DNA of 60,957 nt from a bacterium (GTDB taxonomy: Bacteria; Acidobacteriota; Thermoanaerobaculia; Multivoradales; JAHEKO01). Position 1 is the first letter of the stretch, and every line of letters starts with the position of its first letter. Both the position numbers and the translations under genes were made by a program. The stretch lies in contig JAAENP010000139.1 of NCBI GenBank assembly GCA_024224155.1, positions 1 through 60,957 on the forward strand, in the 5' to 3' direction. Below the pieces are notes generated by a model. It searched no databases. It saw nothing but the letters and a program-made list of their open reading frames with translations, and was not told the origin of the DNA. Positions 2,198-38,901 of this stretch are shown here, piece after piece.

Positions 2198-3661
2198 CTA
2201 GGCCATGCGCTCCAGCTGCTCCTCGATGTCCTCCAGGGCGTCCTGGTCGTAGACGAGCCGCGGTCCCGAAGGCAGGGCAGGCGCATCCCCGGCGGACGCC
2301 TGTGGCGCCCCCGGCGTCGCCGCCGGAGCCTGGGCGGGAGGAGCGCCCGCCAGGGACCTCGTCGGGACCAGGTTCTGGGGCACCATGTGCACCTGACCCT
2401 CCCCGTCCGGAAGCGGGTCCTCGCCCTGCCTGATCCTCCACTCGTCCACCTTCAGGGCCCAGGGCGCGATCTGGGCGTATTTCTGCTTCCTCTCCTCGTC
2501 CTCCGCGATCGGCGACTCGTAGTCTAGGATCAGCCGCTCGTCGAACTCCTTGACCAGGTGCTCCTGCATCACGGCCCGCTGAAGCTCCAGCCGCGGCACG
2601 AGCACCCACTTCGAGAAGAGATAGTCGGCCGCGTCTATCGTGGCCCGGTTGCTTTTCTCGATGATCCCCAGGACCTCGGGGGGCACCCCGAACACCTGGA
2701 TCACCATGTTCCGCTCGAACTCGCGTAGCTGGATGAGCTGTAGGCTCTTGAACGACTGCCCCAGCTGCTTCACGTCGATCTTGCGGTTCATGAAGTACAC
2801 CTGGAGCGACTTGAAGAGGCCCCGGTTCTTCTGCTTCCAGTCCGTCTCGAGCCGGCGGGTCTCCCCCTCGTCCATGCCCTCCGCCGTGACCAGGGTCTCG
2901 GGGATGCCCCTGTTGTAGAACTCCATCTTGCTGTGCTTGGCGGCGTACTCGTCGGTCTCGAGCTCGTCTCCGAGCGCGCACGCGGTCCCCGTGCCCCTCT
3001 GATACGGCGTGTGGGGGTCCAGGTCCATGAACCAGACGACCTCGCTCGCGGGGATGGTGTCCTGCCACGTGGAATGGTCGATCTCAAAGACGGGCCGATT
3101 CGGCGTCGGCGTGCTCCGCACCCAGAAAGGAGGGATGGGCCAGAGTCCCGTGACCACCCCGACCCCGTCGCGCTCCTTGACCCAGAACCCCTCGCCGACG
3201 AGGTCCAGGTGGTGCTGGGTCAGCTTCCGTCCGGCCAGCCCGGCCATCATGGGGTTGAAGTTCTCGAGGAGATCGAGCACCGGGTGGTCGACCACCTCCA
3301 CCAGCTCGCCCGAGTATTGCTTCGCCCGGATCATCTTCTTCCGGCGGCGCTGGGACGACTTCTGCATGGCGGCGGTCTTCGCCGAGAGCGCAACCCCGGG
3401 GGCCGCGGTCTCGTAGTACAGGAGCCAGGGGACCGTGGCCGTCGCGTGGCCGATCTTCCCGACCACCGAGCGCAGCCAGGGCAACCGGCTGTAGGCCCTC
3501 AGCAGGTCCTCGACCTGCCTGGACGGCGGGGGGTTTCTCTGCGAGATGACCGAGCTGACCCCGGTCATAAGGGAGTCCCCCTCCCCGGGCAGCTTGCTTA
3601 TGGCCCGAAGCCGGATCTCCCGCCACGCCAGCCGCAGCCGGTCCATCATGGAGACGTTCAT
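2198..3661 (-). CDS. Portal protein, HK97 family
   Basis: The 487-residue product has the length and gene position of phage portals, which form the dodecameric DNA gate at one head vertex and bind terminase. Family-like stretches include PWLRSVVGKIG early on, and a Gln/Ile-rich helix followed by FGVPPEVLGI near residue 330. The C-terminal 60 residues are Pro/Ala-rich and look disordered. The ATG at 3661 has only a weak GGGG-type ribosome site. An ATG at 3649 is the alternative start. A promoter-like box and a terminator lie upstream. Confidence 0.88.
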   Translation of the reverse strand: MNVSMMDRLRLAWREIRLRAISKLPGEGDSLMTGVSSVISQRNPPPSRQVEDLLRAYSRLPWLRSVVGKIGHATATVPWLLYYETAAPGVALSAKTAAMQKSSQRRRKKMIRAKQYSGELVEVVDHPVLDLLENFNPMMAGLAGRKLTQHHLDLVGEGFWVKERDGVGVVTGLWPIPPFWVRSTPTPNRPVFEIDHSTWQDTIPASEVVWFMDLDPHTPYQRGTGTACALGDELETDEYAAKHSKMEFYNRGIPETLVTAEGMDEGETRRLETDWKQKNRGLFKSLQVYFMNRKIDVKQLGQSFKSLQLIQLREFERNMVIQVFGVPPEVLGIIEKSNRATIDAADYLFSKWVLVPRLELQRAVMQEHLVKEFDERLILDYESPIAEDEERKQKYAQIAPWALKVDEWRIRQGEDPLPDGEGQVHMVPQNLVPTRSLAGAPPAQAPAATPGAPQASAGDAPALPSGPRLVYDQDALEDIEEQLERMA

Positions 3662-3845: not shown

Positions 3846-3874
3846 ATCATAGGGATCGGAAAGCGGTCTGTCAA
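3846..3874 (-). promoter_or_regulatory. Near-consensus sigma70 promoter
   Basis: TTGACA at 3874-3869, exactly 17 bp of spacer, then TATGAT at 3851-3846. The -35 overlaps the stop codon of the BppU-like gene. It points toward the head genes. This is the best bacterial promoter in the window and supports a bacterial host. Confidence 0.75.
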
Positions 3875-4176
3875 ACTATATTTGCGAGCACCGGGAAGTC
3901 CTTGACCTCGCTGGAGTACTTGTACCCCGGCCCCTCCACGTAGGCCTGGATCTCCCAGGTCCCGTGCTGGTCGTAGAAGCCCGCCTCGACCACGTACTGG
4001 ATCTCCCCGTTCGAGCCGTCGTGGACGAAGTCGGCGTCCTTCACGACCGTGGAGTTGTCCTTCTTGCGAAACCGAAGCTCCATCGTCGTGGCGTCGTTGA
4101 TGTCGATCGGGGTCCCATTGCTCGTCAGCGTCACCTGTATGATGCCGCCCTCGTCGCCCACGTATGGCGTGCCCAT
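3871..4176 (-). CDS. Baseplate BppU-N-like / Ig-like phage protein
   Basis: The 101-residue product has the all-beta pattern of the small phage domain related to the BppU N-terminus: a G-x-x-I-x-V-T-L opening, then ATTMELRFRKKD, a central VEYVV-type strand, a GTWEIQAYVEG strand and a terminal DFPVL strand. Such domains occur in baseplate or fibre-associated proteins. The start at 4176 has GGAGG nine bases upstream; a longer open frame to 4212 lacks support. It follows the preceding small gene by one base. Confidence 0.6.
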   Translation of the reverse strand: MGTPYVGDEGGIIQVTLTSNGTPIDINDATTMELRFRKKDNSTVVKDADFVHDGSNGEIQYVVEAGFYDQHGTWEIQAYVEGPGYKYSSEVKDFPVLANIV

Positions 4177-4177
4177 G

Positions 4178-4339
4178 TCAAAGTACCTCCATGTCCAGAT
4201 CCGCCAGGGCACCCACCGGGGCCTCCAGCTCGATCAGGGTGCCCGTCAGCTCCGCCGTGACCTCGACCCGCGCCGCGACCGGAGCAGGCACCTCCACAAG
4301 CGCTCCCACCTCCATGGTCAGCTCCACGATCTCAGGCAC
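4178..4339 (-). CDS. Small Val/Glu-rich protein, unknown
   Basis: A GTG start at 4339 sits behind GAGGAGG with four intervening bases, and the 53-residue frame ends one base before the next ATG. The sequence alternates hydrophobic and Glu/Thr residues (ELTMEVGALVEVPAPV and so on), suggesting beta strands in a repeat. I do not recognise a family. Its place among appendage genes suggests a minor structural protein. Confidence 0.55.
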   Translation of the reverse strand: MPEIVELTMEVGALVEVPAPVAARVEVTAELTGTLIELEAPVGALADLDMEVL

Positions 4340-5085: not shown

Positions 5086-6627
5086 CTAGACTATGATGAA
5101 GGCCGTTCCGTCAACCGGAATTGCCGGCATGGCCTCCGAAACCGTGAAGCGCCCCCGTCCTCCCACCAGGCTATAGGTCAGGACGACCGCCGGGTTGCGA
5201 AGCAGCTCCGTCGTCAGGAAGACGATCGAGCGCCCCTTGTACACGTTCGCCAGGGCGTCGGTCAGGCTCGTCTCGAACTGGGTCAGCGTGGGGGCGAAGG
5301 CGGCGTCGTCCACGGTCCCGATGATCATGGTGTCCTTGGCCGTGGCCAGGTTCGTCGCCGCCAGCACGCTCGCCGCCAAGGCCTCCGTGTCCGCGCGCAT
5401 CCTGCCGGAGGACAGCGAGGCAGGTATCCTCGACTGCACGTCGACGATCTTGGCGGTCCCGGTCCTGTCGTTCACCGTCATGCCGCTTGAGTTGTCGACG
5501 ACGGTGCAGTCCCCGTAGATCGTCGCGGTCCCGGCCGTGCAGGAGGACTCGAAGGTGATCTGTCCGCCCTTGCTGAAACTCAGCACGATGGCGGTCTCCG
5601 CCCTCGTGATGTTTTGTAGAGTCAGGGCGCCGATCACATCTCCGTCGATAAAGAAGTTTGTCGCGCCGTTCACGTCGATCACCAGGGCGTCCAGGCTGCA
5701 ACCCTTGAAGTTAAAGCCGTAATTGTCCACACCGGCGTCCAGCGTCCAGCTCCAGGAAATTTGACAGCGGGTCAGGTCGCCCGCCTTGCCGACCATCTCG
5801 TAGAGCCAGCAGTCCTCGTAGTATCCGCCGCCTTGGTGAAAGCTGTTGTACCAGTACGTCGCGATGCCCTTGAAGCTAGAGAAGTCTATGCTCACGCCAT
5901 CCGAAACCACGTAGATCGCACGGTGGCTTCCGCCCACGCCCTCGAAGTGGTAGTACTCCATGTCCTGGTCGAGGACGAACTCATAGTAGGACGCCATCAC
6001 GTAGAACGTGCGGAAGCCCATGGCGTCCGCGATGGCCTTGGCGTCGGTCAGGTTGGTGACGGGATCGTCCTTCGTTCCCTTCGGATACGCGGTGCCCGTG
6101 GAGCCGTAATCGACGTTCACCCACACGCCGCCCTCGAACGCCTGGCGCATCTGCGCGGAGCCCGCCGTCCCCAGCGTCGTGTAGCTCGCCAGCTGCCTCG
6201 CCCATACTCCTTGCGCCAGCGCGACGATGTCGGCCCCGGTCAGCAGGTCTCCTCCCGTCTGGATGGCCGCCGGGGCCGTGCTCTGCCGGATCACGACGAA
6301 GGTGTTGGCCGAATCCGCGACGGGGTCCGTGCTCGCCTCGTGCTCGTCCACCGCGATCAGGTTCCCCCCCGTCACCTGGCACATGGTGAACGAGCCGCGG
6401 GCCTCGAACCTCACGCGCCAGTCGATCAGCTTCAGCGAGACGGCGGTCGCCTCCCCGCCCCCCAGGTCGAATTTGCCCGCCGCGTCGCACAGCTTCGGCA
6501 GGTCCATGTTCCGGGGCTCGTCCTCCCATCCCCGGATCTGGTTATATAGATCCTGGACCGTGACCGACACGTCCGGCGCCGCCACTTCTATGATTCTATT
6601 CACACGGTCGAACGTCAGGGTCGCCAT
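5086..6627 (-). CDS. Tail fibre or appendage protein, beta-rich
   Basis: The 513-residue protein begins with a short assembly-type segment (SVTVQDLYNQIRGWEDE) like those that anchor phage neck or tail fibres. It continues with Gly/Asn/Thr-rich beta-strand repeats around residues 170-400 suggestive of a beta-helix, and ends in a compact domain. It is the last gene of the glycan-modification operon, three bases after an O-methyltransferase-like gene, so it is a plausible substrate of that cassette. The exact virion role is not determinable. Confidence 0.6.
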   Translation of the reverse strand: MATLTFDRVNRIIEVAAPDVSVTVQDLYNQIRGWEDEPRNMDLPKLCDAAGKFDLGGGEATAVSLKLIDWRVRFEARGSFTMCQVTGGNLIAVDEHEASTDPVADSANTFVVIRQSTAPAAIQTGGDLLTGADIVALAQGVWARQLASYTTLGTAGSAQMRQAFEGGVWVNVDYGSTGTAYPKGTKDDPVTNLTDAKAIADAMGFRTFYVMASYYEFVLDQDMEYYHFEGVGGSHRAIYVVSDGVSIDFSSFKGIATYWYNSFHQGGGYYEDCWLYEMVGKAGDLTRCQISWSWTLDAGVDNYGFNFKGCSLDALVIDVNGATNFFIDGDVIGALTLQNITRAETAIVLSFSKGGQITFESSCTAGTATIYGDCTVVDNSSGMTVNDRTGTAKIVDVQSRIPASLSSGRMRADTEALAASVLAATNLATAKDTMIIGTVDDAAFAPTLTQFETSLTDALANVYKGRSIVFLTTELLRNPAVVLTYSLVGGRGRFTVSEAMPAIPVDGTAFIIV

Positions 6628-6630
6628 GGC

Positions 6631-7521
6631 TCACTCCTCTTTTTCGTCCTCGTCCTCCGACTCCGGGTCGTCCTCGATCTTGTCCCAGGGGATGATGACC
6701 TCCTCCGCCTCGGAGGTCTCGTCGGCATCCTGGGAGTAGACCCCCGCTGGCGCGACCACCTGCTTCTGCCAGATCCGCTCCCACCAATTCTTGACGACCT
6801 CGAACGGGAAGCGCTCCTCCATGAGCGAGCCCCAGGCCGGCACCTGCCAGTCCTCCATCCGGTTGATGCACTTCCGATGGTGCACCACGTAGAACGGGGC
6901 GCCCACGGCCAGCACGTCGTCCAGGTCCTTCAGGTGGTTGTTCACCTCGTCCGGGTCCAGCTCGCACATCACCTTCGTGGCCACGGCCAGGTCGAACTGG
7001 CCCGTCAGCATCGGAACCCGCTCCTGCGCGAACGTCACCCGCCCCACGTCGATCCCCGTGTTCTCCAGGTAGTAGCGCTGGATCGCCAGCATCGGCGCCA
7101 GGTCCACGATGGTCAGCTCCACCCTCGGAAAGTGCGACAAGATCATCCTGGCCATGCCCCCGTACCCGCCGCCGATCTCCACGACCCTCTTCGCCCGCTT
7201 GAGATACGGCCACAGACGCCAGGCCGACCACGCGAACTCGATCGAGCTCAGGCTGACCTGGCCGATCCCAGGCACGGGGTGGCACCTCGGCTCCCCGAAG
7301 GGGTGCTCCTCGGCCATGCCCCAGAACTCCCGCGGCACCCGGTCCATGAAGGTCTTCAGGTCCACGGGGAACTGCTTGTCGAAGTGCAGCCGGTTTCTCG
7401 GCGGCTTCGAGTTCGCCTGATAGTTCCGGTCCATGTGGCCGGTCGTCCCGTCGCAGCGCATCATGCTCGTGAGGGGCGCTCCGTCCTTCTCCCTCGCCTT
7501 AGGCTCCCAGAACTTGCCCAT
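6631..7521 (-). CDS. Putative sugar O-methyltransferase (SAM-dependent)
   Basis: A Rossmann SAM-binding motif I, VVEIGGGYGGMA near residues 113-124, is followed by an acidic strand end (LTIVDLAP). These features and the 296-residue length fit the putative sugar O-methyltransferase group often found in surface-glycan clusters. The C-terminus is acidic. It is a diverged paralogue of the product of 10079-10897, sharing the EIGGG[YF]GGMAR core. The start at 7521 has GGGGGTGA upstream and lies three bases from the previous stop. Substrate unknown. Confidence 0.65.
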   Translation of the reverse strand: MGKFWEPKAREKDGAPLTSMMRCDGTTGHMDRNYQANSKPPRNRLHFDKQFPVDLKTFMDRVPREFWGMAEEHPFGEPRCHPVPGIGQVSLSSIEFAWSAWRLWPYLKRAKRVVEIGGGYGGMARMILSHFPRVELTIVDLAPMLAIQRYYLENTGIDVGRVTFAQERVPMLTGQFDLAVATKVMCELDPDEVNNHLKDLDDVLAVGAPFYVVHHRKCINRMEDWQVPAWGSLMEERFPFEVVKNWWERIWQKQVVAPAGVYSQDADETSEAEEVIIPWDKIEDDPESEDEDEKEE

Positions 7522-7524
7522 GCA

Positions 7525-8169
7525 TCACCCCCAGAGGGAGTCGAACTCCCGTTTCTCGAACGTCTGCTCCGACGACCGGAGCGACGTGTTCCATGCCTTG
7601 ATTCCCCTCCGCTCCAGCTCCGGCAGGAACTGGGCGAAGAAGTCCTCCTGGACCCGGAAGGCCTGCTTCTTGGGCTTCTTCTCGACGTAGTGCTGGCCGC
7701 TTCTGGCGGCGCCCATCTCCTCCTCCGGGTAGAAGTGGAAGCCCCCCCGGACGTTCAGGTCGAGCCCGACGAAGACGACCTCCTCGTACCCGCAGGACAC
7801 CGCCACCTGAAGCGCGCACGGCCCGCCGCCCGCGATGATCCAGCCGTCCCGAAAGACGTCGTAGTCGTCCGGGAGCCTCGGGAGCCGCTCTTCCCGCCTC
7901 CACTCGGTGCGGCAGTACTTGGCGAGCATCGCGGGGCGAAAGCACCCCTCCAGCCTCACCGCACTGAAGCGGGTCTCCGAGAGCGCCGTCTTCTCCACGA
8001 TCTCCCTCCCCCGCAGCTTCATCAGCTTGCCGTAGGTGAAGACGTGGAACCGGCCCACGAGCGCCAGGTAGGACAAGTTGGTGCCGATCACGTCGCAGTC
8101 GATCCGGGTCAGGTCGTGGTCCCCCACGCTGGGCCCGCCGCACAGGATCACGCACCGCCTATTGGGCAT
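7525..8169 (-). CDS. GxGPS-motif glycosyltransferase-like protein 1
   Basis: The 214-residue protein has an N-terminal nucleotide-binding-like motif CVILCGGPSVGD (residues 6-17), then CDVIGTN, and a later motif ending in VFVGLDLN. This pattern resembles the DUF115 / sialyltransferase-like (GT42) fold used in cell-surface glycosylation, where GxGPSL binds the activated sugar. It is one of four paralogues in this cluster and overlaps the upstream paralogue by 11 nt. Sugar and acceptor are unknown. Confidence 0.5.
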   Translation of the reverse strand: MPNRRCVILCGGPSVGDHDLTRIDCDVIGTNLSYLALVGRFHVFTYGKLMKLRGREIVEKTALSETRFSAVRLEGCFRPAMLAKYCRTEWRREERLPRLPDDYDVFRDGWIIAGGGPCALQVAVSCGYEEVVFVGLDLNVRGGFHFYPEEEMGAARSGQHYVEKKPKKQAFRVQEDFFAQFLPELERRGIKAWNTSLRSSEQTFEKREFDSLWG

Positions 8170-8794
8170 AGAAACCCTCCAGCTCCCCGCGCTCGAAGCA
8201 CGTCAGCGCCGAGTCCGGCGCCAGGTTCAGGACCTTCGGCCCGCCGGCCAGCCGCTCCGCCATCTGTTCCATGATGCTTCGCTGTCGCTGCCTCGTGCTG
8301 TCCCACGAGATGTGCTCCCCCTCCTCGGGGAAGGCGTGGCCGCTTCCGTTGCCCATGTCGTACCCGATCACCCCGATCGTGTAGAACCCCATGTAGGCGG
8401 CGGCCTCCAGCGCGAACTGCCCGCAGAACTGCGCGGAGCTGCCCACGTGGAGCGGGCTCAGGGGCTGCTTCCGCCCCCTCAGTGGCCGGACCCGCACGAC
8501 CTTGACGTCCATCTTCCGGATGGGCCGCTTGTCGAGCTGCTGCTCGGTCCTGGTAATGACGATGCCCTCCGGCCTCCACGCCCCGTCCTCGATCTCGCCC
8601 CAGTAGCAGGACTTCCTCAGGATCACGTGAAACGGCGGGTTGACCAGCCTCCACGTCCGGTGCATGCCGATGACCACGACGTTCGGCTTCAGCCGGTCGA
8701 AGTCCACCAGCTCGAGCGAGGGGCCGTTCCCCAGGAGGAGGCATGTCTCCCCCCTCCTCAGGTCCTTCAGCATCAGTGGGTCTAAGATTTGCAC
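8159..8794 (-). CDS. GxGPS-motif glycosyltransferase-like protein 2
   Basis: This 211-residue paralogue carries CLLLGNGPSLELVD at residues 18-31, VVVIGMHRTW after it, and a second shared motif ending GVIGYDMG. A GTG start at 8794 has GAGGTG eight bases upstream and overlaps the previous gene by 13 nt; the ATG at 8773 is the alternative. The best guess is a DUF115/GT42-like transferase acting on a surface glycan. Confidence 0.5.
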   Translation of the reverse strand: MQILDPLMLKDLRRGETCLLLGNGPSLELVDFDRLKPNVVVIGMHRTWRLVNPPFHVILRKSCYWGEIEDGAWRPEGIVITRTEQQLDKRPIRKMDVKVVRVRPLRGRKQPLSPLHVGSSAQFCGQFALEAAAYMGFYTIGVIGYDMGNGSGHAFPEEGEHISWDSTRQRQRSIMEQMAERLAGGPKVLNLAPDSALTCFERGELEGFYAQ

Positions 8795-9438
8795 GGAAAC
8801 ACCTCGTCGAATGTCGTTTTGCGTGACACGGGATCGCCCGTCTCCGGGTTTGTGTTGATGAGCCGGAGCCCCAGCTTCTCCATCGTCGGCCAGGCCTCCC
8901 GGAGCCAGCGCTGCTGCCAGTCCATGTAGGGCTGGCTCGTCTTCCCTCCCTCGTACCAGTGGAGGCCCCTGTCCAGCCGCAGGTCAAAGCCCGCAAAGAC
9001 GAGCTCCCGAAAGCCGAGGTAGTGGGCCGCCTGGATCGCGCAGGCGACCACGCAGCACAGCACCCACCCCTTCCGGGCAAGGTCCGGCTCGAAGTGGTAG
9101 CCCTCCGCCCGTACGCGCTTCCAGATATGCGTCGTCGGGGTCATGGCTCCCTTGCAGGGGAAGGCCGTCAGCATCAGCCCGGCGGAGACCACCTCGTCCA
9201 GCCTCGGCCCGATCTCCCTCGTCAGGCCCGGGTCAACCATGACGTAGAAGTCCAGGGGAGCGCTCGTGATCCTCCGGTAGGTGCGGTTGGTCCCGATGAT
9301 CGCGCAGTCGGCCCGGAGCAGCACCTCCTCGGGCGGGCAGCTCGGCCCGTCGGCCACGATGAGACAGCGCTCCCCCAGTCGGCAGTCCTTGTAGATCAGC
9401 TCGAAGGCGTCCGGGTCGATGTTCGGGGTCTTCTGCAT
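8782..9438 (-). CDS. GxGPS-motif glycosyltransferase-like protein 3
   Basis: The 218-residue product shows the motif as CLIVADGPS (residues 25-33), with Asp in place of the usual Asn, then CAIIGTNRTY and a late VFAGFDLRLDRG motif. The start overlaps the sulfotransferase stop as TGATG, so translation is coupled. It is a paralogue of its neighbour and of 7525-8169. The changed motif residue may indicate a different donor or a weakened active site. Confidence 0.5.
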   Translation of the reverse strand: MQKTPNIDPDAFELIYKDCRLGERCLIVADGPSCPPEEVLLRADCAIIGTNRTYRRITSAPLDFYVMVDPGLTREIGPRLDEVVSAGLMLTAFPCKGAMTPTTHIWKRVRAEGYHFEPDLARKGWVLCCVVACAIQAAHYLGFRELVFAGFDLRLDRGLHWYEGGKTSQPYMDWQQRWLREAWPTMEKLGLRLINTNPETGDPVSRKTTFDEVFPCKS

Positions 9439-10082
9439 CACGCCGCCAGCTCCTCCACGTGGGGCCTCAGCTTCTCGGCCAGGGCCTCCTCCGAGATCCT
9501 TCCCTGCGAGAAGTCCACGACGACGACCGGGCACGGGAAGCTCCACCTCTTCGAGGGCGTCTGGTAGCTTCCGTCGATCACGGTCCGCATGTTGGTCTCC
9601 AGCTCCCAGTAGAACCGTCGCCAGTACTCCGGGTCGTGCGGCCTCCGGAACCGCGTCATGCTCCGCACGGTCGGCTCCTCCATCCGGAACGTCCTCACGA
9701 CCAGGCGCGGCGCCAGCATCTCCCAGTGCTCCCGCTTGGCTCGGGCCAGCCGCCACTGCTTCACCCCCACCAGGCCCGTGCATCCCTCGTGGACCCGACC
9801 GAACCTTTCCAGCCACGGCACGGTCCCAGGTCTGGAGGCCGCGAAGCGCTCCGTGACCCGCAGCAGCCCCCGCTCCTCGTATCCGCCCACCCTGTAGGGA
9901 TAGCCGCCCGCGACCATCTTCGTCGGCGGGTCGAAGTCGTGGGCCATACATACCCCCAGGAGCTCCTGGAGCACGTAGGCCGTGAAGCTCGTCCCGCTCC
10001 GTCCCGTCCCCACGACCACCACGTCCGGGTGCCTCAGCCCCGCGGCCTCCTGCGTTTCGCGTGCGGTTTCCGTGACTTTCAT
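9438..10082 (-). CDS. Sulfotransferase-like protein
   Basis: VVVVGTGRSGTSF at residues 21-33 is the PAPS 5'-phosphosulfate-binding loop of the P-loop sulfotransferase family (GTxRSGTS). A later RSMTRFRRP stretch could be the 3'-phosphate site. At 214 residues it is short but within range for carbohydrate sulfotransferases. Its start overlaps the previous stop (ATGA). The first 15 residues are encoded by a degenerate 11-bp DNA repeat array and look like an unstructured add-on. Predicted substrate: a sugar on a fibre or host surface. Confidence 0.65.
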   Translation of the reverse strand: MKVTETARETQEAAGLRHPDVVVVGTGRSGTSFTAYVLQELLGVCMAHDFDPPTKMVAGGYPYRVGGYEERGLLRVTERFAASRPGTVPWLERFGRVHEGCTGLVGVKQWRLARAKREHWEMLAPRLVVRTFRMEEPTVRSMTRFRRPHDPEYWRRFYWELETNMRTVIDGSYQTPSKRWSFPCPVVVVDFSQGRISEEALAEKLRPHVEELAA

Positions 10083-10150
10083 GCATCGCCCATGCGTTCG
10101 CCCTGCGTTTTTCCTGCGTTCGCCCTGCGTTTCGCGTGCGTTTCGTGCGA
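10051..10150. repeat. TGCGTTT array, copy 1
   Basis: About ten degenerate copies of TGCGTTTnnnn (mostly 11 or 9 bp apart) cover the junction of two coupled genes. They encode the C-terminus of the upstream methyltransferase and the first residues of the sulfotransferase. The same kind of array recurs near 25.8, 41.2 and 54.4 kb. Confidence 0.8.
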
Positions 10151-10897
10151 TGTCCGCACCGCAAGCACCTCCCACCAATCCGCGTCGCGGTCCGGTTCCA
10201 TCCGAAGCTCCCACCAGTCGTCGTAGGGGAAGCTCGAGGCCGGCACGTTGACCCTCTGGCCGTTCGGGTAGCTGTTCCGGTTCAGGTGGTAGAAGGCTCC
10301 CCCCTCCTCCATCACGTCCTCGATGATGTTGAAGTACTCCTCGACGATCTCCGGGGTCATCTCCGAGAGCGACGCCATGTTGAGCACCAGGTCGAACTCC
10401 TGGCCGTAGAGCATCAGGGTCTCGTCGTACCGGACGAACTCGAACGCTCCCTCCCCCGGGTAGAGCTCGCTCAGGTAGAGTCGTTGCATGTCCAAGCACG
10501 GCTGCCCGTCGACCAGGACGTACCTCTCGACCGGGCCGAGTTGTTCGTTCAGGGTCCGCGCCATCCCGCCGAAGCCCCCGCCTATCTCCAGCACCCTCGG
10601 TCGCTCGGGGGGCAGCCATAGCTGCGTGATTCGGTGCAGGTAGTAGGCCATCTTCAGCGACGTCGCGGTCACGAAGACGCCGAACCTCGTCCGCCCCTCC
10701 GGGTCTCCCACGAGGGAGTCCCGTCTCCACTCCATCGGCACGCCCTCGGCCTCGCATCGGTTCCAGAAGTAGTTGAGCTTGGGTACCCTGGTCTGTATCC
10801 CCCCCATCAGCTCCGCGTCCCGCCTGAAGCAGCGCCAGTCCGTTTTTCGGAAGGCCGCCTCCTTCTTCGCCCAGCAGCGATCCCAGTCGTGCCTCAT
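10079..10897 (-). CDS. Putative sugar O-methyltransferase 2
   Basis: The 272-residue protein has SAM motif I VLEIGGGFGGMA near residues 102-113, then YVLVDGQP, then a long C-terminal domain rich in Tyr and Trp. It is related to the product of 6631-7521. The last 20-odd residues (from THAKRR on) come from the DNA repeat array and are unlike any methyltransferase. ATGA overlaps occur at both ends of the gene. Confidence 0.62.
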   Translation of the reverse strand: MRHDWDRCWAKKEAAFRKTDWRCFRRDAELMGGIQTRVPKLNYFWNRCEAEGVPMEWRRDSLVGDPEGRTRFGVFVTATSLKMAYYLHRITQLWLPPERPRVLEIGGGFGGMARTLNEQLGPVERYVLVDGQPCLDMQRLYLSELYPGEGAFEFVRYDETLMLYGQEFDLVLNMASLSEMTPEIVEEYFNIIEDVMEEGGAFYHLNRNSYPNGQRVNVPASSFPYDDWWELRMEPDRDADWWEVLAVRTSHETHAKRRANAGKTQGERMGDA

Positions 10898-11526
10898 AGC
10901 GGGCTCGCGAAGGGGAAGCAGCGGACCGCCGAGTCCGCGTTCGCGTTGTATATCTCGATCCCCTGGTTGCGGCCCTCCCTCAGCCAGGCCGCCGTCTTTT
11001 CCCACCAGCGCCGATGATGGGCGCGGCTCCCCTTCACCTCGTCATGGTGGTGCCCCTCGTTGTCGTGCTCGTCGATCCCGAGCAGGAAGAACGTCTCGAT
11101 CCCCATGACCAGGCCGCACTGGAGCGCCACCCACGGCACGAACTTGGCCCACGTCCCCTCCCCCAGTTCGTGGTCGAAGCTCTCGTCCCGGGGAACGACC
11201 TTGCGCTTCAGGAAGCAGATCGGCACCTGGAGGGCCTTGCCCTGCGGTTGGGTTCTCCCCTTATGAAGGAAGCTCTCCAGCGTGAACATTCTCTCCACCC
11301 CCGGCACCTGACCCCTGGCAAAGTGCGTCCAGTGAGTATTGGCGATCGCGAAGTGGTAGGGCGAGACCACCTCCGTCCAGGACTTGTTGGTCCCGAACAG
11401 GAGGTGGCGGCGCCCGATCGACTCGAGGCGGCCCGTCCACTTCTTCAGGCTCGGCCCGTTGCCGAGAATGCAGGCCGACTCCCCGTGGTGGAGATCCTGG
11501 ACCTCCTCGATCTCAAATCGCCTCAT
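10894..11526 (-). CDS. GxGPS-motif glycosyltransferase-like protein 4
   Basis: This 210-residue paralogue opens with ACILGNGPSLKKW (residues 19-31), followed by LLFGTNKSW and a late FLLGIDEHDNEG motif. A His-rich HHHDE stretch near residue 168 is particular to this copy and might bind a metal. Start and stop both overlap neighbours as ATGA. The family call is DUF115/GT42-like; its partner enzymes are the neighbouring methyl- and sulfotransferases. Confidence 0.5.
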   Translation of the reverse strand: MRRFEIEEVQDLHHGESACILGNGPSLKKWTGRLESIGRRHLLFGTNKSWTEVVSPYHFAIANTHWTHFARGQVPGVERMFTLESFLHKGRTQPQGKALQVPICFLKRKVVPRDESFDHELGEGTWAKFVPWVALQCGLVMGIETFFLLGIDEHDNEGHHHDEVKGSRAHHRRWWEKTAAWLREGRNQGIEIYNANADSAVRCFPFASPL

Positions 11527-11738
11527 CCTCTCCGGGGCGGCGCTGGGATGACGATCACGGAGCGCTCGGCGTCCCTCGCCCGCTTGAGAAGCTCCTTCTT
11601 GATCTCCATCAGCTCGTTCTTTCGCTGAATGTGGGCGCTCACCGCCTGCTGGAGGCGCACGATGTTGGCGTCCTCGTTCTGCATCGCCACCTCGATGTCC
11701 TCCAGCGAGTAGGTCTTCTGCATCCTGCTCTCTGCCAC
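11523..11738 (-). CDS. Small coiled-coil protein
   Basis: A GTG start at 11738 follows GGGAGGACAA, giving 71 residues. The central part is a heptad-rich helix (NEDANIVRLQQAVSAHI, then ELMEIKKELLKRA) and the end is Pro/Arg-rich. It sits between a large fibre gene and the glycan cassette and overlaps the latter by 4 nt. It may be a fibre chaperone or oligomerisation factor, an inference from position only. Confidence 0.5.
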   Translation of the reverse strand: MAESRMQKTYSLEDIEVAMQNEDANIVRLQQAVSAHIQRKNELMEIKKELLKRARDAERSVIVIPAPPRRG

Positions 11739-11748
11739 TTGTCCTCCC

Positions 11749-14181
11749 TTAGAAAGCGTCCTTGATCGTATCATCGATCCGGGAGGCCGCGACGGTCAAT
11801 CCGTTCGAGCCGATGCTGATGTTCGTGGACTGGTAGGGCTCGATCGGGCTCGCGCCGCTGGAGTACCGCACCCGCGCCAGCACCTGGATCGTGGTGCTGT
11901 AGGTCAGCGTGTTGCTCAGCTCGGTGGCCGTCGCCACTCCGTCCACGTAGGGCACGTAGGCCGTGTCCTCCGCCCCGTTGTAGGCCCGGACCAGGGTGTG
12001 GATCGAGTAGGTGTCCCCGCTCTCCCACTGGCCATCGCCGTTCTGCTCCACCAGGTCGACCGTCACGTTCTCGCCGTCGATGATGCCCGTGATGACCCAG
12101 ATGTCGGTCGAGGTGTCGTTGTAGATCAGGTCCCCGATCTCCACGTCGTCCACGTGGACGAACTCCGCGGCGGAGTCCGTGAGCTGCGTGGTGCTCGTGC
12201 CCCCGGTGTGGCTCCCGTGTATCTCCGTCAGGAGGGTGAACGTCGAGCCGGTCCACGAGGCATATCGGTACCGGTCCTCGATCCCCGCGCTCACGTCGAC
12301 GCATCGGATCACCCCGGCAGCCGGATAGTCTGAATCGATGGCGGCGTCCACCACGATGTCCGGGTCGCCGAGGTTGTTCGCGGCGGCCAGCCCGTGCTGG
12401 TCCTTGACCAGGCTCGTCAGCCCCGCTCCCGTGACCTCCGCGATGAAACCACGATCCCCAGCCACCAGGCCGGAGATGACAATGCTGACCACGTTCGGGG
12501 GCTGCTGCAGGACGCCCAGCGTGTCGGTGAGCTGGTAGTTCTTGGCGTCCCCGGCGGGCACGTTCAGGAGGCTGACCCCCCTGGCGCAGAAGAACACGCC
12601 GCCGGCAAACGTCCCGAACGGCGCGGCGGGCACGGCCACCACCGCCGAGGTGGTCTGGATCTCGGCGTTGCCCGTGCCGGTGTCGTCTATCTCCTCCCCG
12701 GCCACGAAGGTCCCCTTCACGTCCCGGAGGACCAGGTATCCCTCTTCTCCCGTGTCGTAGTCCGACGTGATTATCCCCGTGGCGCCGGACACGTGTCCGA
12801 CCAGCGTCTCCCCCTCCGTGAAGGCCGCGCCTTGGTGGATGTACCGCACCAGCAGCTCGCCGATCGCCGTGTAGAACTCGCCCGCGATGGTCTGGCCCCC
12901 ATCGTCGATGTCGGCGGTCCCTCCCCGGCGCGTGAGATGCTTCGTCCGCTCGTACACCTCAGAGAGATCCTGGGTGTTGCAGTCGATCTGAACCGAGTAG
13001 GGCCGGTTGCCGTTGCCGTTGTTGATGTCCTGGAGGACGTGGCCGAACGTGGCCACGATCGAGGTGTCCAGCGCCGGACCGGCGTTCGCCGGGGCGCCCG
13101 CATCGCAGTAAGAACCGGAGGTCTGCCCCACGACCCCCTCCGCCGCATCGAAGTCGGTCAGGTCCTTTCCGATCAGGTAGTAGGTCAGGACGGGAGATCC
13201 GACGGTCCCTCCGACCGCGGTCACGACCCCCTCCGCTCCGGAGTGCTCGCCGACTATCCTCTCCTCTGCGGTGAAGGTCACGGTGCCGTTGCTGCCCGTG
13301 AAGGTCCGGTTCCCCGTGGTGTTGTTCAGGTCGTCGCCCGAGGAAAGCGGGACGGCACTCCGGCCCCCGGCGCTGACCGTCAGGCTAAAATGCGAGTAGG
13401 TCTTGCTGTACTGGCGGCAGAACACCGTCAGCCTGGCGCCGTCGATCAGGCTGTCGACCTCCTTCACCTTCACCAGCACGTCGATGTGCCCGGCGGAGAC
13501 GTCCAGCACCTTCGTGAAGGTCGAGCTGCGGTTCCACCAGGAGGTCAGCTTCGTCTTGGAGCTGTCCCCGCCCATGAAGTCGGCCTCCTGCATGATGTAG
13601 ATCTCGGACAGATCCTCGATCGTGCCCAGCGTGTACCCGCAGGACCAGAGGGATTCGCCCGTGGCCCAGCCGTCGGTCGTCTCGGTCGTGAAGGCCGTAC
13701 TCGTGCTGGTGCAGCTCTCCGCGTCCTCGAACTGCGCGACGGAGGTGCTTCGGACCCACACGACCCGGCGGGTTGCGTCGGCGTACAAGATCACGCCGGT
13801 CGCCCCGGAGTGCTCCCCCGTCACCGTCTCGCCCCTGTCGGCGTTGGTCGGCGGGTCGGACGAGCCGGAGGTCCAGCGGAGCTGCGTCACCCCGGCGGCC
13901 CCGCTCTTGGTCCACCCCACCGAGGACATGGCGCCTCCGTAGAACGCCTTGTGCGACTCGTCGTCCATGAACCAGCCGTTGATCCAGGTGTAGTCGGTCG
14001 GGGTCGCGGCGCTGATCGGAACCGGGTCGTCCATCTGGGCCGGCTCGTCGAAGAGGTCCTGCAGGTAGGAGTACAGCTCGTTCGAGTGGTAGCGGCTGTC
14101 CGGGATCCCGTCCGTGAAGCCCCCCGTGTACTCCACGGTCTGCCGGGTGTAGTTGACGGTTATGTCATCAGCAATTGCCAT
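11749..14181 (-). CDS. Large phage appendage or tail protein
   Basis: The 810-residue protein has a helical N-terminus (residues 1-60), Trp-rich beta segments, and at least four repeats of a small beta module with the signature GEHSGATGV or GHVSGATGI (residues about 125, 310 and 465). That signature recurs in phage head-tail and fibre proteins. A DUF-type Ig-like region precedes the C-terminus, which ends IDDTIKDAF, the same ending type as the next gene upstream. GGAGG lies seven bases before the ATG at 14181. Confidence 0.62.
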   Translation of the reverse strand: MAIADDITVNYTRQTVEYTGGFTDGIPDSRYHSNELYSYLQDLFDEPAQMDDPVPISAATPTDYTWINGWFMDDESHKAFYGGAMSSVGWTKSGAAGVTQLRWTSGSSDPPTNADRGETVTGEHSGATGVILYADATRRVVWVRSTSVAQFEDAESCTSTSTAFTTETTDGWATGESLWSCGYTLGTIEDLSEIYIMQEADFMGGDSSKTKLTSWWNRSSTFTKVLDVSAGHIDVLVKVKEVDSLIDGARLTVFCRQYSKTYSHFSLTVSAGGRSAVPLSSGDDLNNTTGNRTFTGSNGTVTFTAEERIVGEHSGAEGVVTAVGGTVGSPVLTYYLIGKDLTDFDAAEGVVGQTSGSYCDAGAPANAGPALDTSIVATFGHVLQDINNGNGNRPYSVQIDCNTQDLSEVYERTKHLTRRGGTADIDDGGQTIAGEFYTAIGELLVRYIHQGAAFTEGETLVGHVSGATGIITSDYDTGEEGYLVLRDVKGTFVAGEEIDDTGTGNAEIQTTSAVVAVPAAPFGTFAGGVFFCARGVSLLNVPAGDAKNYQLTDTLGVLQQPPNVVSIVISGLVAGDRGFIAEVTGAGLTSLVKDQHGLAAANNLGDPDIVVDAAIDSDYPAAGVIRCVDVSAGIEDRYRYASWTGSTFTLLTEIHGSHTGGTSTTQLTDSAAEFVHVDDVEIGDLIYNDTSTDIWVITGIIDGENVTVDLVEQNGDGQWESGDTYSIHTLVRAYNGAEDTAYVPYVDGVATATELSNTLTYSTTIQVLARVRYSSGASPIEPYQSTNISIGSNGLTVAASRIDDTIKDAF

Positions 14182-24699: not shown

Positions 24700-24887
24700 C
24701 GCGCACCCTCCCAGTACAGCCGCCGGAACATGGCCCGCGTCTTGCGGTCGTGCTCCGGCTCCTTGGCGGGCTCCCTGTGGCCGCAGCGCTTGCACTCCAG
24801 GCCCCGTCGGTACGGGTTGCGCTCGACGTAGGTCACCCAGAAGTGAGTCCCGTTCTCCGTCTTCGGACACCTCGGCGTATCGCCCAT
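24696..24887 (-). CDS. Zinc-ribbon small protein next to the DNA methyltransferase
   Basis: 63 residues. CPKTENGTHFW and CKRCGHREPA give a loose four-ligand zinc site. The start overlaps the cytosine methyltransferase stop as TGATG, so the two are co-translated. It might supply a DNA-contact module missing from the short methyltransferase; this is speculation. Confidence 0.5.
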   Translation of the reverse strand: MGDTPRCPKTENGTHFWVTYVERNPYRRGLECKRCGHREPAKEPEHDRKTRAMFRRLYWEGAR

Positions 24888-25756
24888 CAGAACAGCGCCC
24901 CCTGCTTCTTGTCCTCGGCCTCTTCCTTCGGCGCGTTCTTGACGACCCGGTCCCTCTTCTTGCCGGCCCCGCGCTTGATCATCGCCCGGTCGTCGCCGCC
25001 CATGATCTCGTGGAGCGCCTTGTACTCCCCGAAGTCGCCCCGCTCGAGGATCCGGCAGACCTCGTCCAGGACCGTTCCCCCGTCCACGGTCGGCATGTTG
25101 ATAATCCCGGGCACGTTCTCCATGCACATGGTCCGGGGCTGCATCTCCGTGACGAGTCTGGCGAACTCGAAGGTCAGGTTGTTGCGGGGGTCGGCCACCT
25201 CCCGCTTGCCCGCCGAGGAGTAGCCCTGGCACGGCGGCCCCCCGACCACCAGGTCGAGCTCGCCCCGGGCCATCCCGATCGAGTCGAGTATCCGCTTCCC
25301 CGTCAGCTTGGAGGCGTCTCCGAACCAGTACACGGGCACCCCGTGCCAGCCCGGCGGCGACCACTCCTCCCGGCGGTTCGAGCCCGAGACCGACGTCACC
25401 TCGTACAGCTCGACCCCCTCCCCGAAGAGGCCCGCCTGTCCGCCGTCCTTCGGCTTCTTGATGATGTTCCTTTCCATCCAGGTCTCCAGCCGCTCCTCGT
25501 CCTCCGGCTCCACGTATCGGATGTCCACCCTGTCCGCCCCCAGGTTGGTCAGGTACGTGACCAGGCAGTTCTCGTCATTGTCGACCGCCGCCACCACGTG
25601 GAAGCCCGCCTCCAGGAGCCCCAGGCTGAAGCCCCCGGCCCCGGAGAACAGGTCCACGGCGGTCAGCCTCTTGGTCAGGTGGGCCGGCACCGCCAGCCCC
25701 GAGGGCAACACGTCCCAGCTATCGTCGAATCTCTCCGCCGTCTCGATCAGGCCCAT
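24887..25756 (-). CDS. DNA (cytosine-5) methyltransferase, short form
   Basis: The 289-residue enzyme shows motif I DLFSGAGGFS (residues 35-44), motif IV GGPPCQGYS with the catalytic Cys near 176, and motif VI ENVPG near 213. An unusual 60-residue insertion between motifs II and IV contains KKPKDGGQAGLFGEG. After motif VI only about 70 residues remain, with no visible target-recognition domain and no motif VIII (QRRxR), IX or X. It is either a compact divergent enzyme or an inactive remnant. The start at 25756 has GGGAGGAG. Confidence 0.8.
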   Translation of the reverse strand: MGLIETAERFDDSWDVLPSGLAVPAHLTKRLTAVDLFSGAGGFSLGLLEAGFHVVAAVDNDENCLVTYLTNLGADRVDIRYVEPEDEERLETWMERNIIKKPKDGGQAGLFGEGVELYEVTSVSGSNRREEWSPPGWHGVPVYWFGDASKLTGKRILDSIGMARGELDLVVGGPPCQGYSSAGKREVADPRNNLTFEFARLVTEMQPRTMCMENVPGIINMPTVDGGTVLDEVCRILERGDFGEYKALHEIMGGDDRAMIKRGAGKKRDRVVKNAPKEEAEDKKQGALF

Positions 25757-25785
25757 GGTCTCCTCCCGTTCATGCGCCCCGTTCA

Positions 25786-25895
25786 TGCGTCTTGCGTGCG
25801 TTTCCTGCAATCTGTGCGTTCGCCCGTGCAGTTTAGCTGCGTTTTTGGTGCGGTTTCCCGTGCGTTTCGTGCGTTTGTGCGTTTTGCGTGCGTCG
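25786..25895. repeat. TGCGTTT array, copy 2
   Basis: About eleven degenerate TGCGTTTnnn units, 8-12 bp apart. They encode the last 20 residues of the DUF5131 gene and fill the gap to the methyltransferase start. Like copy 1, the array sits at a gene junction. Confidence 0.8.
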
Positions 25896-26831
25896 TCCGG
25901 GCGGTTCCAGATACTCCCTCACCCTCAGCTCCCCCGGCCACTCCCCCGGGTGGCCCCCCTCGGAGTTGTGCGCGTAGCGACCCAGGTCCCCGCCGTTGCT
26001 CCGGGCCCAGGCCGTCCCCATCTGCTTCATGAAGAACGGGACGCCCGCCTGTCGGCACTGGTCCCGAAGGTCCCGGAACCAGCCCGGGTCCGAGGGCCTC
26101 GCGTACGGCCCGCTCTCCCCCCCGGCGATCACCCAGTCGAGGCTCGGTCCCTCCACGCACTCACCCTCATGCGGATGCTTTTCCCAGCATGTCTGCCAGA
26201 CCGATGCGCTGAGATCCAATGGGTCGAGCAGCGGCTCCGCGGAGATGAACCGGCGCGCCGCCGGCGTCTCCAGGAGAATCGGGATCCGACGGTCCGCCTC
26301 CCGCTGTCCCTCGGTCGACACCCCGAGCCATACGTTCGGGAGCGGCCACTCCACGTCGTACCGGATCCCGCGGTTCCGCGCCCGGAAGGTCCCGTCCTTC
26401 AGGACCGATGCCCACTCCCTGGCTCGCAGCTCGATCTCCGTCCTCGCGCTGACCTTGATCCCCCCGCCCGCCAGGAACCTCCGCATCGCCTCCGGCCTCT
26501 TCGTGAGCACCTGGAAGGTGTGCCAGTGGGCCACCGCCATGACCCCGAAGACGTCCGCGACGAAGCCGACCGGCAGCTGCTCGTGGAACAGGTCCCCCAT
26601 CGAGCAGACGAAGACCCGCCTCGGCTCGTACCACCGGAAGGGCGCCGTCAGCGTGTATGGGTGGACGCGGAGGTTCGTCTGGACGTTCTCCGGCGTCCAG
26701 GGCTTCCACTCCCTCCGGACGTTTCTCTTCGACTGGCGCTCCGCGTAGCAGTTCAGGCACCCGGGGCTCACCTTCGAGCACCCCGTGGCCGGGTTCCAGG
26801 TCTCGTCCGTCCATTCAATCTTGGAACTCAC
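25833..26831 (-). CDS. DUF5131 (phage Gp37/Gp68) family protein
   Basis: 332 residues from a GTG start with AAGGTGATCC before it. The N-terminus is typical: IEWTDETWNPATGCSKVSPG with the Cys set C18, C25, C28 (CxxxSxGCxNCYA), then FVCSMGDLFHE and VLTKRPE. The family is related to radical-SAM / photoproduct-lyase-like proteins and is common in phages. The role is unknown, though nucleic-acid repair or modification is suspected. The last 20 residues derive from a DNA repeat array. It overlaps its upstream neighbour by 17 nt. Confidence 0.85.
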   Translation of the reverse strand: MSSKIEWTDETWNPATGCSKVSPGCLNCYAERQSKRNVRREWKPWTPENVQTNLRVHPYTLTAPFRWYEPRRVFVCSMGDLFHEQLPVGFVADVFGVMAVAHWHTFQVLTKRPEAMRRFLAGGGIKVSARTEIELRAREWASVLKDGTFRARNRGIRYDVEWPLPNVWLGVSTEGQREADRRIPILLETPAARRFISAEPLLDPLDLSASVWQTCWEKHPHEGECVEGPSLDWVIAGGESGPYARPSDPGWFRDLRDQCRQAGVPFFMKQMGTAWARSNGGDLGRYAHNSEGGHPGEWPGELRVREYLEPPGRRTQNAQTHETHGKPHQKRS

Positions 26832-33915: not shown

Positions 33916-34019
33916 GCGGGCTCCGCGTGCTTTCCGTCGTCCGTTCCATGGCACCGATCCTCGCCGAAGCACCGAATGCAATCGCCGCAGGCCTCGCAAT
34001 AGCGGCAGCCGTCCGTCAC
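33912..34019 (-). CDS. 35-residue six-Cys peptide
   Basis: GTG in a GTGA overlap with terL. The product VTDGCRYCEACGDCIRC then FGEDRCHGTDD has six Cys in 22 residues plus one His, enough for one or two zinc ions. It is too short for most annotation cut-offs. Its coupling to the terminase suggests a packaging accessory or merely operon position. Confidence 0.45.
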   Translation of the reverse strand: MTDGCRYCEACGDCIRCFGEDRCHGTDDGKHAEPA

Positions 34020-35266
34020 CAGAGCCTCGCCGCCAGCGGGGCGTTCAGGAGGCCGTAGGCCGCGAGCGCCGCCGCGATCACGCAATCGTCGTGCATCCCC
34101 TCCGGCGCGTTGTAGCGGATGTTCCCCGCCTTCGTCATCTCGAACCCGAACGAGATCAGCTCGTTGTACATCACCGCCCCGTCCTCGTCCGACGGGATCA
34201 GGATGTCCAGGTTGTTCAGCGCGATCGCCAGGCCGTCGATGAGCGGAATCTTCCTCGCCCCCGTCTCCACGCCCTCGATCCTCAGCCCCTCCCTCTCCAG
34301 GTCCTGGACGATCGGCAGGCCGACCCCGCTCTGGTCCACGAAAAAGCGGGGCCTGCCCGTCTCCTGCGAGATCATGTGCAGGCGCTCCTTCGTGTTGGGC
34401 CACGGGAGCTGGAACCGGCTTATCCCCGTGGGGTGCCCGTGCCTGCACACCCCGTACGCGACCGTGAAGTCCACCCGAAACCCCAGGTCCACCCCCACGC
34501 AGAACGTCGGGTGGTTGCAGTACCCGCTTGTGTTGGGGAACATCATCTGGGCGGCGAGCTGGGCCTCCTTGACCTTCTGGAAGACCTCCCCCTCGTCCGT
34601 CCTCAAGAACTCCGCGAATATCTCCTGCTTGACCAGCCGCGGCACCAGGTCCTGCATCACCGACCGGAGCTCGCTCTCTTCCAGCCACGGGTTCTCGAAC
34701 GAGGGTCCCCCGAACGAGGCGTAGCTCGGATACTCGGGGTCCTTCCCGTAGGCCCATACCTTGTGGAACCAGTTGTGCCCCTTTGGCGTTCCCGAGAAGA
34801 GGGCCGGGCCCTTGAAGTCCATGAGTGCCGGTCGCAGCGACTCGCTCCAGACCCTCTCGTCGACGATGCCGGCCTCGTCGATCCAGACCCACCTCAGACC
34901 CTCGGCCACCAGGTTCTCCGGCTTCTCGGCCGTCTTGAACTCGATGCGGACGTGGCCCATGTCCATGGCGTCCGGGGCGCGCTCCGTCCCGATCATCTTC
35001 GTGATCCAGCCCTTCGGGGCCAGGCGCTCGAACTTCCGCCAGACGGGTCGGGCCACCTTGTAGGTCGGCGCCACGTACCAGCCGATGGAGGGGCTGACCC
35101 TCTCCACCTGGTCGCGTCTCGCCTTTTCCAGTGCCCACCATACGCCGAACTCGCTCTTTCCCCACCGCCTCCCGGCGGCTATGGTCTTGAATCTTGCCTC
35201 GCTCTCCCACGCGTCGATCTGTCCCTCGTGGAGACGGATGTCGAGCGCGCCCCCCAGCCTCGCCAT
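34016..35266 (-). CDS. terL: Terminase large subunit
   Basis: 416 residues. Packaging ATPase: Walker A AAGRRWGKS near residues 30-38, Walker B WVWIDEAG near 126-133, coupling motif FSGTPKG near 157. RNase-H-like nuclease: GVDLG near 258, FVDQSGVGLP near 310 and HDDCVIAAAL near 394 supply the acidic residues. It cuts and pumps phage DNA into the prohead through the portal. It starts three bases after terS. Full length. Confidence 0.95.
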   Translation of the reverse strand: MARLGGALDIRLHEGQIDAWESEARFKTIAAGRRWGKSEFGVWWALEKARRDQVERVSPSIGWYVAPTYKVARPVWRKFERLAPKGWITKMIGTERAPDAMDMGHVRIEFKTAEKPENLVAEGLRWVWIDEAGIVDERVWSESLRPALMDFKGPALFSGTPKGHNWFHKVWAYGKDPEYPSYASFGGPSFENPWLEESELRSVMQDLVPRLVKQEIFAEFLRTDEGEVFQKVKEAQLAAQMMFPNTSGYCNHPTFCVGVDLGFRVDFTVAYGVCRHGHPTGISRFQLPWPNTKERLHMISQETGRPRFFVDQSGVGLPIVQDLEREGLRIEGVETGARKIPLIDGLAIALNNLDILIPSDEDGAVMYNELISFGFEMTKAGNIRYNAPEGMHDDCVIAAALAAYGLLNAPLAARLW

Positions 35267-35269
35267 GGC

Positions 35270-35860
35270 CTAGTCTTTGGGGCGCAGGTCCTCTGGGATC
35301 TCCCGCTTCTTGACGACCGTGATCCGAAGCTCGGTCGGTCCTCCCTCCGGGGTCGTCAGCTCGGTCCTGATCTTGCGGCCCCACTTCTCCGGGTCCACGG
35401 CCTCGAGGTAGCGTGCCGATGCCTGCCAGCACGGCGCCTGTGCCGGCCTCAGGAGGTGGGGCTGTCCGTCCTTGTCCAGGAGGAGCTTTCCCTTCTCGTC
35501 CCTCAGGTACTCGGCCTCCGCCCCGAGGCCCGCCCGCTGTATGTTGGTCGCGTGGGCGGCCTGGTTGTCGGCGCGGGCCTGCCTGACCTCCCGGACCAGC
35601 TGCACGAAGACCTCCTCGCCCCGCTTGGAGCGTACCAGCCCCCGGGCCTCCATCCTCTCCAGCTCGTCCTCGCCCCGCCCCAGCCAGTTGTAGAGCGAGC
35701 GCTCGGAGTACCCCAGCGACTCGATGGCCTGCTTGTTGTAGTGCACCTGGCGGACCTTCTGGCATATGCGCTCCACCAGCTCGGGCGTCAGCGAGTGCCG
35801 ACGCCCGATCGACCTCTTCCTCTTGGCCGGTGCCCCCTTCTGCTTCTCCTTCTTCGCCAT
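35270..35860 (-). CDS. terS: Terminase small subunit
   Basis: 196 residues with an N-terminal Lys/Arg tail, then a helix-turn-helix-like region (LTPELVERICQKVRQVHYNK, then SLGYSERSLYNWL). Next come a helical oligomerisation part and a strand-rich end. It should recognise the packaging site and load TerL. Directly upstream of terL. AAGGCGAGG supports the ATG. The 41-bp repeat array about 550 bp upstream is a candidate pac site. Confidence 0.85.
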   Translation of the reverse strand: MAKKEKQKGAPAKRKRSIGRRHSLTPELVERICQKVRQVHYNKQAIESLGYSERSLYNWLGRGEDELERMEARGLVRSKRGEEVFVQLVREVRQARADNQAAHATNIQRAGLGAEAEYLRDEKGKLLLDKDGQPHLLRPAQAPCWQASARYLEAVDPEKWGRKIRTELTTPEGGPTELRITVVKKREIPEDLRPKD

Positions 35861-37948: not shown

Positions 37949-37954
37949 CTCGAG

Positions 37955-38347: not shown

Positions 38348-38351
38348 CGGC

Positions 38352-38876: not shown

Positions 38877-38901
38877 CCCACTTCCTCCCTTGATTTGGCT
38901 T

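Follow-up and report, generated by a model that had tools for sequence, protein, structure and literature searches.

We describe a run of seven genes on the minus strand (positions 6631-11526) of contig JAAENP010000139.1. The window, which is the whole stretch of 60,957 nucleotides analysed here, is an entire contig from a 5.7 Mb metagenome-assembled genome of 576 contigs. The run encodes four proteins with a GxGPS loop (GX-A to GX-D), two predicted sugar O-methyltransferases (MT1 and MT2) and a sulfotransferase-like P-loop protein (P0004). With a chance that we put slightly above even, this run is a phage cassette for glycan decoration, co-expressed with virion genes, that most likely attaches a short, methyl-capped and possibly sulfated glycan to a virion protein. 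Established here are the family and fold of the GxGPS proteins, the curated family of the methyltransferases, the layout of the genes, and the recurrence of GxGPS genes beside virion genes in other phages. An earlier reading of the sequence alone (the original prediction) had proposed glycans as the substrate class common to the seven proteins, and the analysis supports this.

The gene run and its flanks

The seven genes of the run, in the order of transcription, are:

10894-11526, minus strand: GX-A, GT42/DUF115-superfamily glycosyltransferase-like protein (ILGNGPSL; GTNKS; GID); phrog_4603 E 6.6e-8, PF01973 below cut-off, A1 and A3 profiles to CstII
10079-10897, minus strand: MT1, predicted NanM-type S-adenosylmethionine (SAM)-dependent sugar O-methyltransferase (EIGGGFGGM); TIGR04371, 73.8 bits against a cut-off of 44
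9438-10082, minus strand: P0004, sulfotransferase-like P-loop protein (VVVGTGRSGTS; RTFRMEEPTVRSMTRF); motifs only
8782-9438, minus strand: GX-B, GxGPS protein (VADGPS; GTNRT; GFD); phrog_4603 E 0.0015
8159-8794, minus strand: GX-C, GxGPS protein (LGNGPSL; GMHRT; GYD); phrog_4603 E 5e-11, predicted structure
7525-8169, minus strand: GX-D, GxGPS protein (LCGGPS; GTNLS; GLD); phrog_4603 E 4e-5
6631-7521, minus strand: MT2, predicted NanM-type sugar O-methyltransferase (EIGGGYGGM); TIGR04371, 56.6 bits against a cut-off of 44

These open reading frames (ORFs) lie about 3 kb from the portal gene and between large virion-type ORFs. A protein of 810 amino acids (aa) and one of 71 aa are encoded before GX-A, and a 513 aa protein follows MT2:

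11749-14181, minus strand: 810 aa virion-type (fibre-like) protein, upstream of the cassette; ORF
11523-11738, minus strand: 71 aa heptad-rich small protein, overlapping GX-A by 4 bases; gene call
5086-6627, minus strand: 513 aa virion-type (fibre-like) protein, downstream of the cassette; ORF

From the 71 aa gene through GX-D, neighbouring genes overlap by 1-13 bases, while MT2 lies 3 bases from both of its neighbours, and the third-position GC content of all seven ORFs is coding-like (0.88-0.95). The run is therefore tightly packed, probably translationally coupled, and not a series of chance ORFs. The single overlapping run in the virion-gene region that had been described from the sequence was thus found as predicted. 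The 810 aa protein would be a fibre judging from its size, composition and position. Its sole relative was found in a viral contig of 188 kb (L069), where none of three profiles matched in the neighbourhood and the simple gene call performed poorly.

Families and folds of the encoded proteins

Among all window ORFs of at least 150 aa, a hydrophobic residue followed by GxGPS occurs in exactly GX-A to GX-D, which are 20-25% identical to one another. A profile search of the 5.7 Mb assembly likewise returned all four and nothing else (GX-B against the A3 profile, E 7.8e-45, with GX-B itself a profile member). The phrog_4603 family that they match is labelled 'alpha-2,3-sialyltransferase', and all four miss the gathering score of PF01973 (Pfam MptE-like), scoring 21.2, 17.6, 23.1 and 12.0 bits against 34.6. 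An alignment of the four retrieved 20 phage loci from IMG/VR. By sequence comparison, GX-A to GX-D are thus judged to be real homologues, divergent paralogues of one phage family. In a tree, all four fall with three viral sequences in one poorly supported part, where GX-B and GX-D pair and all branches are long. Recent duplication as the origin of the four copies is ruled out by the low identity, the long branches and the lack of a single clade. No relatives in phages were found for the GxGPS relative from locus L009, and P0006 and P0007 had no close relatives, or only distant ones, in the phage and viral collections.

The A3 profile, a 28-member alignment of GxGPS relatives, was searched against PDB sequences and found the sialyltransferases CstII (E 2e-8), Cst-I (7.5e-6) and 9c08 of Pasteurella multocida (1.1e-5), followed by Maf (0.005). 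No structure of 6-hydroxymethyl-7,8-dihydropterin pyrophosphokinase (HPPK) was matched by it up to E 1. An AlphaFold2 model of GX-C from the same 28 members has a mean predicted local distance difference test (pLDDT) of 75.6 and a predicted template modelling score (pTM) of 0.78. Compared by VIA-align, it places Maf first (Z 15.6, 195 residues), with the HPPK of M. jannaschii (8sd5, Z 11.7) and CstII (Z 11.6, 182 residues) next, then thiamin pyrophosphokinase (Z 8.9), and unrelated rows at about 4. The match to Maf, HPPK and CstII spans 160-195 residues. In Foldseek, the sole PDB matches to the model at E <0.001 were GT42 sialyltransferases (CstII, 3.8e-5). Glycosyltransferases and pyrophosphokinases cannot be told apart by this fold alone; of the two, the sequence profile points to a glycosyltransferase.

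The donor-binding residues of CstII are N9, N31, T131, S132 and D154, with His188 as the catalytic residue. Aligned to CstII, the window proteins all retain the GxGPS loop and the D154-type aspartate of the GxD motif (4/4), and an N31-type asparagine is present in three, with histidine in GX-C. A T131/S132-type pair is not evident, and the profile alignment ends before His188. We therefore name the proteins GT42/DUF115-superfamily glycosyltransferase-like and do not file them as sialyltransferases. Fold, loop and GxD motif are common to Campylobacter CstII (GT42), Magnetospirillum Maf (DUF115) and the window proteins; the latter, in contrast, are shorter (about 210 aa; Maf has 632 residues in 5mu5) and have changed T131/S132-type residues. 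In both profile and fold, the original assignment of four DUF115/GT42-like proteins held, with the fold comparison adding HPPK at a Z score like that of CstII.

For the two methyltransferases, the evidence comes from a curated family. Both MT1 and MT2 (METHYLTRANSFERASES) exceed the cut-off of TIGR04371, the NanM putative sugar O-methyltransferase family, and sugar methylation is predicted for them, as it had been from the sequence. The neighbourhoods of three bacterial relatives were inspected and proved to be surface-polysaccharide clusters. The relative in a Sideroxydans metagenome-assembled genome adjoins a nucleotidyltransferase, a GDP-mannose-dehydratase-like enzyme, a DegT aminotransferase and GT1/GT2 glycosyltransferases. 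Glycosyltransferase genes also stand close to the other two. Synechococcus phage Sf-FS3 carries a NanM-type methyltransferase as well, in a long sugar cluster that also encodes fucosyltransferases and UDP-glucose dehydrogenase.

The case of P0004 is less clear, and its role as a sulfotransferase is a hypothesis drawn from motifs. Residues 25-32 (GTGRSGTS) fit the 5'-phosphosulfate loop GxxRSGT[ST] near the N-terminus that is typical of sulfotransferases, and RTFRMEEPTVRS downstream is a plausible R...S stretch of the 3'-phosphate type. Elsewhere in the window and in the first 23 viral loci, the only ORFs with this loop pattern encode the curated Sulfotransfer_3 protein of two near-identical records (L006 and L008), and in these two phages true sulfotransferases occur near GxGPS genes. 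The protein could instead be another P-loop enzyme or a degenerate copy, in which case the glycan would not be sulfated; we regard this as a substantial possibility, although the smaller one. It has no match to PF13469 or PF00685 (Sulfotransfer_3 and Sulfotransfer_1) up to E 1, none in any PHROG or other family library searched, and none in the PDB. Against a profile of 25 sulfotransferases it reaches just E 0.09, hhalign against Sulfotransfer_3 proteins aligns the P-loop alone (28 residues, probability 66%), and its single-sequence structure model is unusable (pLDDT 32). Relatives were absent from the viral, phage and genome collections, including the genome contigs and a two-row query with the L006 sulfotransferase, and 455 bacterial genomes of its own order and phylum gave weak, chance-like matches only. 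Of the sulfotransferase using 3'-phosphoadenosine 5'-phosphosulfate (PAPS) that had been proposed, the motifs are confirmed, while family, structure and profile searches did not bear it out.

The phage contig and related systems

The contig is a phage, as seen from its portal protein, both terminase subunits and a BppU_N protein:

2198-3661, minus strand: portal protein; phrog_2662 E 1.9e-58
3871-4212, minus strand: BppU N-terminal-domain protein, baseplate/receptor-binding context; PF10651 E 1e-9, phrog_257 minor tail protein
34016-35266, minus strand: terminase large subunit; library match
35270-35860, minus strand: terminase small subunit; library match

All 108 selected genes of a simple gene call lie on the minus strand. 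Neither end repeats nor matches to tyrosine or serine recombinases (integrases) were found on the contig, and it therefore shows no sign of lysogeny, with the proviso that it may be incomplete. The portal has no close relatives, or only distant ones, in the phage and viral collections. At one end, an ORF starting MPQGITQTKLQEM is cut by the contig boundary (1-287, minus strand) just after a protease-like ORF and could be the major capsid gene; at the other (about 60800-60957, minus strand) stands a long G-rich low-complexity stretch, possibly an assembly artefact.

GxGPS genes recur in other phages. In six of the seven IMG/VR records with a phrog_12 portal, such a gene lies about 0.5-4 kb from the portal, and a search from one IMG/VR GxGPS protein led to 73 isolate or reference records (24-39% identity among the matches listed). 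The A3 profile matches PmgO (E 1e-36) and PmgP (1e-17) of phage P1, PMG1_0008 (2e-39) and gp516 of CcrSC (1.5e-62), the CcrSC protein being a member of the profile (L021). Both pmgO and pmgP belong to the GxGPS/GT42-like family and form an overlapping tandem among the pmg genes (L071, 3974-5160). In the D3-like Pseudomonas phage PMG1, the GxGPS gene stands between the major head protein and a head-tail adaptor, and a methyltransferase gene follows 2 kb away. Caulobacter phage CcrSC has it directly behind two tail(-fibre) genes; after it come three proteins without annotation, then a methyltransferase and a GT9-like protein. In Brevundimonas phage Papperlapapp it comes after genes for tail and lectin-like proteins. 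PMG1, IME307 and CcrSC each encode a methyltransferase no more than about 3 kb from the GxGPS gene. The likeness to the window is thus the same GxGPS family among virion genes, in tandem in P1 and close to a methyltransferase in PMG1 and CcrSC. These phages differ in having one or two GxGPS genes against four, no annotated sulfotransferase-like gene and, in PMG1 and CcrSC, methyltransferases that match Methyltransf_23 and not NanM at E 0.001.

Two IMG/VR phages (L006, 3300017989_000306; L008, 3300029258_001641) resemble the window in GxGPS and sulfotransferase-type genes, each contig also holding a GT2 glycosyltransferase. They differ in that several curated Sulfotransfer_3 copies are scattered over the contig, the GxGPS gene is single, and there is no NanM methyltransferase; to our knowledge, several Sulfotransfer_3 matches on one contig are unusual for phages. 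Another viral contig (L003, 9902-15876) carries two GxGPS genes, a GT2, an adenosine-5'-phosphosulfate (APS) kinase and cytidylyltransferase-like protein, two further transferase-like proteins and a radical SAM protein.

Viruses that glycosylate their own particles have been described. Phage enzymes glycosylate the capsid and tail tube of the mycobacteriophages Che8, Corndog and Myrna (PMC12363180; PMC12619734), with methylation and sulfation not reported in these two papers. Chlorovirus PBCV-1 builds a methyl-capped glycan on its capsid protein with its own transferases and two O-methyltransferases, A064R and A061L being named (PMC9614988). It thus combines virus-encoded glycosyltransferases and methyltransferases as proposed here, but it is an algal virus with other transferase families, and the same paper mentions no sulfotransferase. 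In a literature search whose coverage left out most subscription journals, nothing relevant on phage cassettes of sulfotransferases and glycosyltransferases came up. The claim that no such phage system had been described has to be narrowed. GxGPS, methyltransferase and other glycosyltransferase-like genes stand among virion genes in CcrSC, PMG1/D3-like phages and IME307, P1 has two GxGPS genes, and GxGPS genes accompany sulfotransferases in the two IMG/VR phages; no other record found in the collections searched had the full run of four GxGPS paralogues, two NanM-type methyltransferases and a sulfotransferase-like gene. The kind of system is already known, and the window holds the richest, more elaborate version found here.

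Proposed role and competing explanations

In the scheme that we infer, which extends to catalytic activity, donor sugars, the order of steps, sulfation and the virion as target, the cassette would be transcribed together with the virion genes. The four GxGPS glycosyltransferases would draw on nucleotide sugars of the host to assemble or lengthen a short glycan. As old, divergent paralogues, they would probably serve one linkage each. MT1 and MT2 would O-methylate sugars of this glycan as methyl caps, and P0004 may add sulfate from host PAPS. The likeliest acceptor would be a virion protein synthesised alongside the cassette, for instance one of the large fibre-like proteins encoded next to it, a capsid protein or a tail protein. 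With no integrase match on the contig, late modification of the virion fits better than lysogenic conversion. A bolder version, in which a full multi-step pathway places a methylated and sulfated oligosaccharide on the phage's own fibres, the first sulfated phage virion glycan, and in which GxGPS genes, those of P1 and D3 included, are widespread overlooked virion glycosyltransferases, seems doubtful to us.

Several points weigh against decoration of the virion. The sulfotransferase assignment of P0004 is unconfirmed by family, profile, structure or relative, the GxGPS fold also serves HPPK-type kinases, and the GT42 donor-contact positions are kept in part only. None of the flanking ORFs (810, 544 and 513 aa) has a match in the family libraries, which leaves the predicted position 'between large fibre genes' plausible but unproven, and the acceptor cannot be read from gene position alone. 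In P1, pmgO and pmgP were nonessential in a laboratory CRISPR interference screen (PMC10695390) and likewise in an earlier deletion survey, as cited there, so that no phenotype ties them to virions.

The main rival is that, during infection, the cassette alters a glycan of the host surface, be it O-antigen, capsule or S-layer sugar, which could serve, for instance, to block superinfection or the loss of progeny on debris. The polysaccharide clusters around the relatives of MT1 and MT2, and the sugar cluster of Sf-FS3, speak for it, as does Maf, the DUF115 relative, which acts on bacterial flagellin. Yet the seven genes include no recognisable membrane-embedded transferase, flippase or polymerase; they lie inside a virion module, have comparable genes in unrelated phages, and share the contig with no integrase match; we consider this rival rather unlikely. 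The idea of immune evasion that had been attached to the cassette found no support, since the contig was binned with an uncultured bacterium and has no link to an immune system. Alternatively, the GxGPS proteins could be nucleotide- or pterin-binding enzymes (HPPK/MptE-like) or non-catalytic morphogenesis proteins. The structural matches to archaeal HPPK and thiamin pyrophosphokinase would agree with this, as would the below-threshold MptE-like model, which is their nearest in Pfam, the GTP cyclohydrolase I and QueD encoded by the phage, and the label 'putative morphogenetic function' carried by the P1 relatives. The sequence profile, however, finds GT42 sialyltransferases and Maf, the genes are co-located with sugar methyltransferases, and the two pterin-type enzymes lie about 25 kb away beside QueC, where they fit preQ0 synthesis; we hold this explanation to be improbable.

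We give very little credence to the view that the cassette acts on hypermodified phage DNA, adding sugars and methyl groups to it. The phage does have preQ0 genes and a C5 cytosine methylase, which adjoins a DUF5131 protein (24887-26831, minus strand). The methyltransferases, in contrast, match the sugar family of polysaccharide clusters, the cassette sits with virion genes, and we know of no hypermodified base in P1 or D3-like phages, where the GxGPS family occurs. DNA modification by phage glycosyltransferases is known (Pyle 2024, as cited in PMC12619734). The preQ0 genes by themselves explain deazaguanine modification, and their set (36628-41114, minus strand) suggests that the DNA carries it:

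36628-37206, minus strand: GTP cyclohydrolase I; preQ0 pathway
37203-37832, minus strand: radical SAM QueE-like protein; preQ0 pathway
38902-39294, minus strand: QueD/PTPS; preQ0 pathway
39673-40443, minus strand: queuine tRNA-ribosyltransferase-like protein; PHROG 887
40440-41114, minus strand: QueC; preQ0 pathway

If the GxGPS family does decorate virions, two 'putative morphogenetic' genes of P1 that have long gone unexplained would share one testable function with the genes labelled 'alpha-2,3-sialyltransferase' in D3-like and Caulobacter phages, and virion glycosylation would be far commoner in phages than its few proven cases suggest. The window would be the case to show the extent to which phages build their own glycans. 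The most useful outcome is that P1 and D3-like phages offer laboratory access to the whole GxGPS family.

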